Below, piece after piece: positions 36,955 through 38,309 of a DNA stretch of 38,309 bases. A program made the position numbers and the translations under genes. Source of the stretch: Phycisphaerae bacterium. GTDB lineage: Bacteria > Planctomycetota > Phycisphaerae > UBA1845 > Fen-1342. The DNA lies in assembly GCA_022072445.1 (NCBI GenBank), contig JAJVHV010000007.1, positions 214,126 through 252,434 of the forward strand, written 5' to 3'. Under the pieces are notes generated by a model. It worked only from the letters and a program-made list of their open reading frames with translations, made no database searches and had not been told where the DNA came from. Each line of letters starts with the position of its first letter. The stretch's first letter is position 1.

Positions 36955-37025
36955 CCCGGCGTTTACGCCGGGCCCCCAGCGTTTACGCCGGGCGTTCCCG
37001 CCCTGAAGGGCGGGGCTCGGAAGTC
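36955..37025. repeat. REP-like palindrome cluster at the 3' end of the transposase gene
   Basis: CCCGGCG-TTTA-CGCCGGG (36955-36972) is a perfect hairpin. A half-copy of it (CAGCGTTTACGCCGGGCG) follows at 36978-36995. CCCGCCCT-GA-AGGGCGGG (36997-37014) is another perfect hairpin. It runs into GGGGCTCGGAAGTC (37012-37025), whose exact inverted copy lies at 37188-37201 inside the transposase gene. The transposase stop codon (36983-36985) lies within the TTTA loop of the half-copy. Confidence 0.7.
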
Positions 37026-38044
37026 TGCGACCGCGAAGCCTGTGTGGTCGCGCCCTCGCCGGGCGCGTAGCTGAACACAATCAGAGCCCCCGGCTGGTTC
37101 TCCACATAGCGCTCGGCCGAGCGAATCGCGTCGTCGTTGGGCAGCATGCGGCGCGAGCCGTGCTCGGTCCACCAGCGCCCGCCCGCGGACTTCCGAGCCC
37201 CGGCGTTTACGCCGGGCGTAGTGGTCGCATCCTTCGGGACCCGGGCGTTCGGGCCGGGCGTAGTGGTCGCATCCTTCGGGACCCGGGCGTTCGGGCCGGG
37301 CGTAGTGGTCGCATCCTTCGGGACCCCGGCGTTCGGGCCGGGCGTAGTGGTCGCATCCTTCGGGACCCGGGCGTTCGGGCCGGGCGTAGTGGTCGCATCC
37401 TTCGGAACCCCGCCGTTTACGCCGGGCGCGTTGGTCGCATCCTTCGGAACCCCGGCGTTCGGGCCGGGCGTAGTGGTCGCATCCTTCGGAACCCGGGGCG
37501 TCGGGCCGGGCGTAGTGGTCGCATCCTTCGGAACCCGGGGCGTCGGGCCGGGCGCGTTGGTCGCATCCTTCGGAACCCGGGCGTTCGGGCCGGGCGTAGT
37601 GGTCGCATCCTTCGGAACCCCGGCGTTCGGGCCGGGCGCTCCAATCGCCTGCCCGAGCCGCCGCGACGACACGCCCTTGAACAGATTGAGCAGCCGCGCG
37701 CCGTCCGCTTCCTCAGACATCGCCACGACGTGCACGTGGTCGTCCATGATCGCACACGCGTGAATCCCGACGTCATGACGATCGGCCACCTCGCGCACGG
37801 CTTCCGCGACCACGCGTGCTTGCTCTGCCGTCAGGCGAACAGTTTCGCCCGCCTGCCGGCGCCGCGCCATGTGACGAAGCGCCGGCATGTCGAAGTCGTA
37901 CGGTTCGCCCGGCGTGTTGTGGATCACCCAGCCCCCGCGCCCATCCGGAATCCGGCTGACAAACCCGCGCTCGTCGCCCGGCAGCCAAGTGCCGTACGTC
38001 GTCCACGTCAGCAAGTATGTCCCCCCGGTTGCCCTGGCCGACAC
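36983..38044 (-). CDS. REP-associated tyrosine transposase (RAYT, IS200/IS605 Y1-type) with an internal repeat array
   Basis: A 353-residue Y1 transposase. The N-terminus (TYLLTWTTYGTWLPGDERG) is typical of RAYTs. The HUH motif is DDHVHVV (H103, H105) and the nucleophile candidate is Y313 in SAERYVENQP. Between them, residues ~137-276 are ten copies of a 14-residue unit (PGPNARVPKDATTT and variants), so the protein is about 140 residues longer than usual. Without the array, GVSSRRLGQAIG would join directly to RWWTEHGSRRML as in ordinary RAYTs. The last ~20 residues (SQTSEPRPSGRERPA) are encoded by REP palindromes, stop codon included. It starts with GTG 38044 after GGGGGAAAG. RAYTs mobilise or maintain REP sequences and are often domesticated. 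Confidence 0.88.
   Translation of the reverse strand: MSARATGGTYLLTWTTYGTWLPGDERGFVSRIPDGRGGWVIHNTPGEPYDFDMPALRHMARRRQAGETVRLTAEQARVVAEAVREVADRHDVGIHACAIMDDHVHVVAMSEEADGARLLNLFKGVSSRRLGQAIGAPGPNAGVPKDATTTPGPNARVPKDATNAPGPTPRVPKDATTTPGPTPRVPKDATTTPGPNAGVPKDATNAPGVNGGVPKDATTTPGPNARVPKDATTTPGPNAGVPKDATTTPGPNARVPKDATTTPGPNARVPKDATTTPGVNAGARKSAGGRWWTEHGSRRMLPNDDAIRSAERYVENQPGALIVFSYAPGEGATTQASRSQTSEPRPSGRERPA
37203..37638. repeat. 42-bp tandem repeat array (10 full copies plus 16 bp) inside the transposase gene
   Basis: The unit on the + strand starts GCGTTCGGGCCGGGCGTAGT and continues GGTCGCATCCTTCGGGACCC. Copies begin at 37203, 37245, 37287 and so on to 37581, with a partial copy at 37623-37638. 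All are exactly 42 bp, so the reading frame is kept. The outermost (37203) and sixth (37413) copies contain GTTTACGCCGGGCG, the same sequence as the REP hairpin at 36955-36972. Other copies carry GTTCGGGCCGGGCG. GTAGTGGTC alternates with GCGTTGGTC. Confidence 0.93.
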
Positions 38045-38070
38045 AGCTTTCCCCCGCGCTGCGCGCGCCT

Positions 38071-38178
38071 CCCGGACCGCCGGAACCTCCTGAACTTCCC
38101 GAACCTTTCGAACCTCCGGAGCCTCGCGGACCTCCGGAGCCTTTCGGACCTCTCGGACCTCTCGGACCTCCGGAGCCC
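38071..38178. repeat. 9-bp tandem repeat upstream of the transposase gene
   Basis: Twelve contiguous 9-bp units of the form NNCGGANCCT run without indels, for example CCGGAACCT, TTCGAACCT, CCGGAGCCT and CTCGGACCT. The array starts 27 nt upstream of the transposase start codon. It is open in several frames and would encode Pro/Glu/Gly-rich tripeptides on the + strand, but no gene context supports translation. Confidence 0.75.
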
Positions 38179-38240
38179 CGGCGTCTCGACTTTGGCCCTT
38201 TCTAGATTTCGCGAAGTGATTTCGCTTCGGCTGGTGGAGA

Positions 38241-38276
38241 TTGCGCGGATCGGTTATCTAGTTATATAACTAGATA
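38241..38276 (+). promoter_or_regulatory. Promoter overlapped by a perfect 22-bp palindrome
   Basis: TATCTAGTTAT (38255-38265) is followed directly by its exact reverse complement ATAACTAGATA (38266-38276). TTGCGC (38241-38246) and TATAAC (38265-38270), spaced 18 nt, could form a promoter whose -10 lies in the palindrome centre. The AT-rich palindrome in GC-rich DNA looks like the operator of a dimeric repressor. The regulated gene would start beyond the right edge. Confidence 0.6.
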
Positions 38277-38301
38277 GCCGCCGCCGGGCGACGGTCGGCT
38301 C

Positions 38302-38307
38302 AAGGAG
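38302..38307 (+). promoter_or_regulatory. Ribosome binding site AAGGAG for a gene beyond the window
   Basis: AAGGAG ends 2 nt before the window edge and lies 26 nt after the palindrome, where a ribosome binding site downstream of the 38241-38276 promoter is expected. The start codon itself is not in the window. Confidence 0.5.
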
Positions 38308-38309
38308 CC

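Follow-up and report, generated by a model that had tools for sequence, protein, structure and literature searches.

A tandem repeat of probable REP origin in frame between the catalytic motifs of a Y1 transposase from Planctomycetota

How a tandem repeat can come to lie in frame between the two catalytic motifs of an otherwise intact transposase, and what it does there, is the question raised by a gene at the end of a contig in a draft genome of Planctomycetota (5.25 Mb, 50 contigs, 96.7% complete). The window, i.e., the whole stretch of 38,309 nucleotides that was analyzed (G000:C5:214126-252434), forms the final 38 kb of this contig. A preliminary description had proposed that a REP hairpin entered the gene of a RAYT transposase and then expanded in frame. 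It offered three roles for the resulting array: a tolerated linker between the catalytic halves, a copy-number switch for the enzyme, or a substrate that the enzyme recognizes in its own gene. Our preferred reading, held with good though incomplete confidence, is a REP-derived coding minisatellite, in which a REP entered a loop and was tandemly duplicated about ten-fold, yielding a disordered linker with no demonstrated function of its own.

The transposase gene and its repeat array

The encoded protein belongs to the Y1 HUH superfamily, its Y1_Tnp domain scoring 29.9 bits in Pfam, against a cut-off of 23. It combines the HUH pair (H103/H105) with a single catalytic tyrosine (Y313), invariant or nearly so among 32 aligned sequences. 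Foldseek finds the Y1 fold, with matches to 2xm3, 2xma, and 2f4f (probability 1.00) and to 4er8 (probability 0.95), although at modest E-values (4.5e-3 to 5e-2); the core, thus, resembles IS200/IS605 TnpA and the E. coli RAYT 4er8, and IS200 TnpA structures were also matched in an HMM search with the protein. As the curated NCBIfam cut-offs for RAYTs (REP_Tyr_transpos, 38.4 vs. 80 bits) and for IS200 (transpos_IS200, 28.3 vs. 55 bits) are both missed, the protein is called RAYT-like here. As expected of a RAYT/REPtron, the gene is flanked by genome-recurrent REPs: the broader REP pattern yields 17 sites in the genome, versus zero in the reversed control, and the majority of these belong either to this gene or to a relic of its paralogue on contig C17. 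A Pfam match to herpesvirus gp350 fell below the cut-off and was rejected as low-complexity Pro/Thr similarity. Immediately preceding the GTG start, the open frame holds an 18-bp (2 × 9) tandem repeat of the GGACCTCCG type (window 38068-38174).

TRF places the array at 37190-37638 (period 42, 10.7 copies, score 698, with 90% match and 0% indels). The array keeps the reading frame, separates H103/H105 from Y313, and encodes the repeat (PGPNxxVPKDATxx)n. The ten units and a partial one, free of indels, and the approximately 140 residues that they were said to add, were thus confirmed by TRF and translation; the start, formerly set at 37203, lies about 13 nt earlier. The eleventh unit (residues ~276-288) is REP-like and reads TPGVNAGARKSA, the REP sequence itself. 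Unit 7 shows no differing position from units 9 and 10, and the variable columns are evenly spread over codon positions. All ten units share, without any change, a 16-nt non-REP stretch that encodes PKDAT; this could reflect selection or just recent spread, and leaves a small opening for a function.

The array is unique to this gene within the genome. The conserved half of the unit has 10 matches genome-wide, all of them within the array, and none in the reversed control. A scan of the genome for the unit, recommended in the preliminary description, thus returned nothing outside the transposase gene, and the common dispersed minisatellite that would have spoken against that description was not what was found. 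Searched with the same half, 26 further genomes from the family yielded no array, only single matches with 2-3 mismatches, i.e., at the level of the reversed control. The unit had no exact match in viral contigs, and no match in plasmids.

In a 50-contig draft, an array of this kind might be an assembly artefact or have a wrong copy number, as several of its units are identical and could be miscounted from short reads, and as only about 700 bp separate it from the end of the contig. This is quite unlikely, considering that distinct variants occur among the units, that the frame is intact with coding sequence on both flanks, and that analogous in-frame arrays and embedded RAYTs are found in independent assemblies, including single-contig genomes.

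Table 1. Features of the transposase gene and its surroundings (window coordinates).
Feature	Position	Strand	Basis
Y1 (IS200/RAYT-like) transposase ORF, 353 aa, GTG start	36983..38044	-	ORF call; Pfam Y1_Tnp; AF2 core pLDDT >90
HUH motif codons H103-V-H105	37730..37738	-	Alignment: H105 invariant, H103 at least 90%
Catalytic Tyr313 codon (YVENQ)	37106..37108	-	Y313 and Q317 invariant, 32 aligned sequences
Ten full 42-bp (14-codon) array units, residues 136-275	37220..37639	-	TRF and translation
Partial eleventh unit, intact REP with CTTCCGAG foot, in register	37190..37219	-	TRF; hairpin scan; DNA fold z -2.3
Canonical REP hairpin CCCGGCG-TTTA-CGCCGGG inside ORF	37199..37216	.	Hairpin scan; identical to 36955-36972
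Weakened 6-bp REP-like hairpin, unit 8; same at 37451-37468 and 37619-37636	37325..37342	.	Hairpin scan
REP hairpin at gene 3' end, first of cluster	36955..36972	.	REP and hairpin scan
Second REP copy of 3' cluster (CCCAGCGTTTACGCCGGG, one mismatch)	36975..36992	.	REP scan
Second REP type CCCGCCC-TGAA-GGGCGGG, inverted, with CTCGGAAG foot	36997..37014	.	REP pattern and hairpin scan
Half REP (GAGCCCCGGCGT) upstream of gene, cut by IS-like end	38173..38184	.	Sequence
Terminal segment of multicopy IS-like element; contig ends here	38185..38309	.	Repeat search

Origin of the array

Within the window, GTTTACGCCGGGCG occurs at 36981, 37205, and 37415. Of the two array units said to retain half of the REP hairpin, unit 6 (37415) indeed holds a damaged hairpin, whereas the copy at 37199-37216 turned out to be a complete REP, with a 7-bp stem and the CTTCCGAG foot. 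Compared with the REP cluster at the 3' end of the gene, unit 6 scores 36 (shuffles 15.4 ± 3.0). The consensus unit scores 26 against the REP (shuffles 16.5 ± 2.6, shuffle maximum 29), which is borderline, and the link to REPs, therefore, rests on units 6 and 11. The canonical 7-bp stem is kept by one of the 11 units (the edge unit, DNA fold z -2.3) and a 6-bp stem by three, and the other units tested fold no better than shuffles (z -0.7 to +1.3). The array, then, probably descends from a REP and is mostly no longer one.

An ordinary GC-rich minisatellite, grown by slippage and resembling a REP by chance or convergence, would agree with the borderline similarity of the consensus unit and with the ordinary hairpin energies of most units. 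It is, nevertheless, an improbable explanation, because two in-phase units are REPs, one of them complete with its foot, because unit 6 scores as given above, and because the REP is rare. In 5.25 Mb, CCCCGGCGTTTACGCCGGGG is found eight times when up to one mismatch is allowed; four of these sites fall within or next to the transposase gene, and another adjoins the C17 relic.

A comparison with homologues points to REP entry as well. The sole close paralogue, the 5'-truncated relic on C17, is without the array and reads RRLAQAFGPRPKGRWWTEHG (AFGPRPKGRWW), where the window protein reads RRLGQAIG-[array]-GGRWWTEHG. The relatives listed are essentially all from Planctomycetota, many from Phycisphaerae. 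When the insertion point was sought in about 100 aligned relatives, as the preliminary description had advised, nearly all were found to lack the array, with only a few residues at its position. Besides the window, inserts of at least 12 aa occur in this loop only in L058 (17 aa) and L082 (15 aa). The L082 insert contains a CCGGCTAAAGCCGG palindrome, a hairpin with no other copies in that locus, and is possibly an independent hairpin insertion in the same loop. Two other relatives vary near the transposase N-terminus: L080 has a large in-frame insert with the repeat (TIRAANASGLNDEAPPAK)n, and L061 an in-frame duplication of the start region. The relic itself (L002 / L024, on G000:C17) adjoins a remnant of an MmeI-type methylase, recognized by a weak Pfam match that falls below the cut-off (E 0.0026); this is also the host gene of the best relative (L051).

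Taken together, the score of unit 6, the intact REP in register in unit 11, and the array-less paralogue argue that REP entry followed by in-frame expansion, as first proposed, is probably correct. A REP hairpin would have entered a surface loop between helix C and strand β4 of the Y1 (IS200/RAYT-like) transposase. Amplification would have come after, the REP and a short adjoining stretch (42 bp in total, i.e., 14 codons) being tandemly duplicated about 10 times, presumably through slippage or unequal exchange. Only copies with frame-keeping changes would have survived, and the product would be a disordered (PGPNxxVPKDATxx)n linker, looping out of an intact HUH-Tyr domain. L051 shows an analogous process: the RAYT within its MmeI gene is surrounded by in-frame REP arrays of 30-bp units, with a TTCCGAGCCCC foot as in the window.

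REPs also meet another element in this genome. The end motif of the IS-like element at the contig end has 24 copies, many of them near contig ends, and its putative transposase fragment was assigned to no Pfam family. At four places (window 38173-38309, L018, L020, and L017), the element either lies directly against a REP hairpin or interrupts one, which suggests that it targets REPs.

Role of the array and transposase domains within host genes

Modeling of the protein with its array, another check advised at the outset, gave a confident Y1 core (AF2, 32 sequences, pLDDT >90) and a disordered array (pLDDT ~40), devoid of secondary structure. In this model, the array lies between helix C (115-134) and strand β4 (292-300), with Tyr313 on the following helix. 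Within the array, pN is 0.095 and pS 0.104, a weak test of neutrality, as homogenization of the units is possible, whereas the enzyme core, compared with the C17 relic, is constrained (dN 0.10, dS 0.72). Amino-acid changes in the array, thus, look neutral, and the array looks like tolerated filler, with frame as its main constraint. Among the three roles proposed, that of tolerated linker fits best, given the predicted disorder and these substitution patterns.

Alternatively, the array could be a functional, tunable linker: its length would determine how far or how flexibly the Tyr helix can reach from the HUH core, and would vary between strains as a switch. IS200-type enzymes assemble composite active sites (in cis or in trans), and the array is placed exactly between the catalytic halves, has no indels, keeps the frame, and holds invariant PKDAT codons. 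Such a role is unlikely, however, as amino-acid changes show no depletion compared with synonymous changes, nearly all relatives make do with a few residues at this site, and the insert precedes strand β4 rather than helix D directly (AF2). In addition, the units are multiples of three, so that their gain or loss would not act as a frameshift on/off switch.

It is very unlikely that the array serves as a substrate, with the transposase cutting REP hairpins in its own gene and altering their copy number. The unit probably derives from a REP of the flanking type, the ORF contains at least one intact REP, and REPs cluster at this gene and its relic; nevertheless, the stems are reduced as described above (canonical in one of 11 units, 6 bp in three), the tested units fold like shuffles, and slippage by itself suffices to account for the array, with no action of the enzyme. 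Both the substrate array and the self-rewriting element of the preliminary description are, for these reasons, disfavored relative to tolerated filler.

The nearest relatives of the window protein are mostly not free-standing, but consist of whole RAYT domains in frame inside other genes, many of them flanked by in-frame REP arrays. The closest (L051, 60% identity) lies inside an MmeI-type restriction gene, between the arrays mentioned above. Other domains are found inside PurH, at one common site (L027, L028, L029, and L053), LeuRS (L052), and ValRS (L055 and L058). In the genome studied here, the only AlaRS gene found (L023, G000:C11:64000-78000, ORF 9831-4777 on the minus strand) encodes 1684 aa and holds two whole Y1 domains in frame, both flanked by in-frame palindrome-type repeats (SPDRKEGV and PHGRGS). 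Another lineage has members inside ValRS (L142, L143, and L153), at a different position in ValRS (L030), and within a methylase of the Eco57I type (L139); the assemblies holding L142 and L139 (G394 and G317, respectively) are single contigs. For the PurH-embedded RAYT, an AF2 model of low confidence (mean pLDDT 37.7, four sequences) was set aside.

The tree divides the embedded copies into two groups, separated by a branch with support 100/99, and places the window protein among the first; embedding in ValRS, thus, probably arose at least twice. The ValRS sites of the two lineages are ~20 residues apart (by eye). Across the 392 genomes surveyed, such transposases are mostly free-standing, with a minority embedded. 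A literature search of open-licence papers found no description of transposase domains inside tRNA synthetases. We tentatively suggest, at somewhat less than even confidence, that Y1 transposase lineages of Planctomycetota and their REPs live inside the coding sequence of essential genes (PurH, ValRS, LeuRS, and, twice, AlaRS), much like inteins without splicing, and that the window array represents the same in-frame REP growth in the transposase's own gene. Embedded copies make the question of mobility versus domestication in RAYT/REP systems directly testable, as the host gene cannot be lost and a mobile copy must insert without breaking the frame. The array, for its part, indicates the size that a palindromic repeat can reach in a gene that apparently still works, provided that the loop is permissive.

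Comparison with known systems

Tandem REP arrays are known from the BIME-2 of E. coli, BIMEs being extragenic. Tandem amplification of a REP is common to both systems, whereas the window array is coding and codon-phased. In-frame intragenic palindromic repeats have been described for GTAG/CGTC REPs and Rickettsia RPEs, which lie in genuine protein-coding genes, sometimes in clusters (43-82 aa) (Di Nocera et al. 2013, PMC3733652). The present array is likewise in frame in a coding gene; nevertheless, its host gene is the transposase itself, it reaches ~150 aa, and the relatives of the window protein place whole transposase domains, rather than hairpins alone, into host genes.

Among transposase classes, the TnpA_Y1 class 3 of Planctomycetes shows a CnGA foot on its flanking hairpins (Quentin et al. 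2018, PMC6006769). The window protein shares with it the phylum, W[TA] after HuH, a widely spread HuH-Y distance, and the foot (CCGA), which by eye is found as TTCCGAG before CCCCGGCG... at the intact REP on the array edge. By motif comparison, however, it carries DHVH and Y---Q (YVENQ), rather than the NHVH and Y----Q signature of class 3, to which the AlaRS-embedded copies are a better fit. In the same study, a few unexpectedly long proteins were discarded as fusions or annotation errors (PMC6006769).

The closest precedent for a REP within its transposase gene is TnpA_REP subclass 2.4, in which REPs lie in frame, generally between HuH and Y, in a peripheral variable region with short repeats (Quentin et al. 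2018, PMC6006769). Such a gene, consequently, is not entirely without precedent. Both cases feature in-frame REP sequence in a transposase gene. In subclass 2.4, the insertion falls between β3 and αC, mostly in Cyanobacteria and Bacteroidetes (PMC6006769), whereas the window protein is a Y1 protein from Planctomycetota that has the Y---Q motif, and its insertion, amplified to 10.7 units, is predicted between αC and β4. The window array is, therefore, a variant of a published theme, set in a different loop and a different transposase group, and marked by large tandem amplification.
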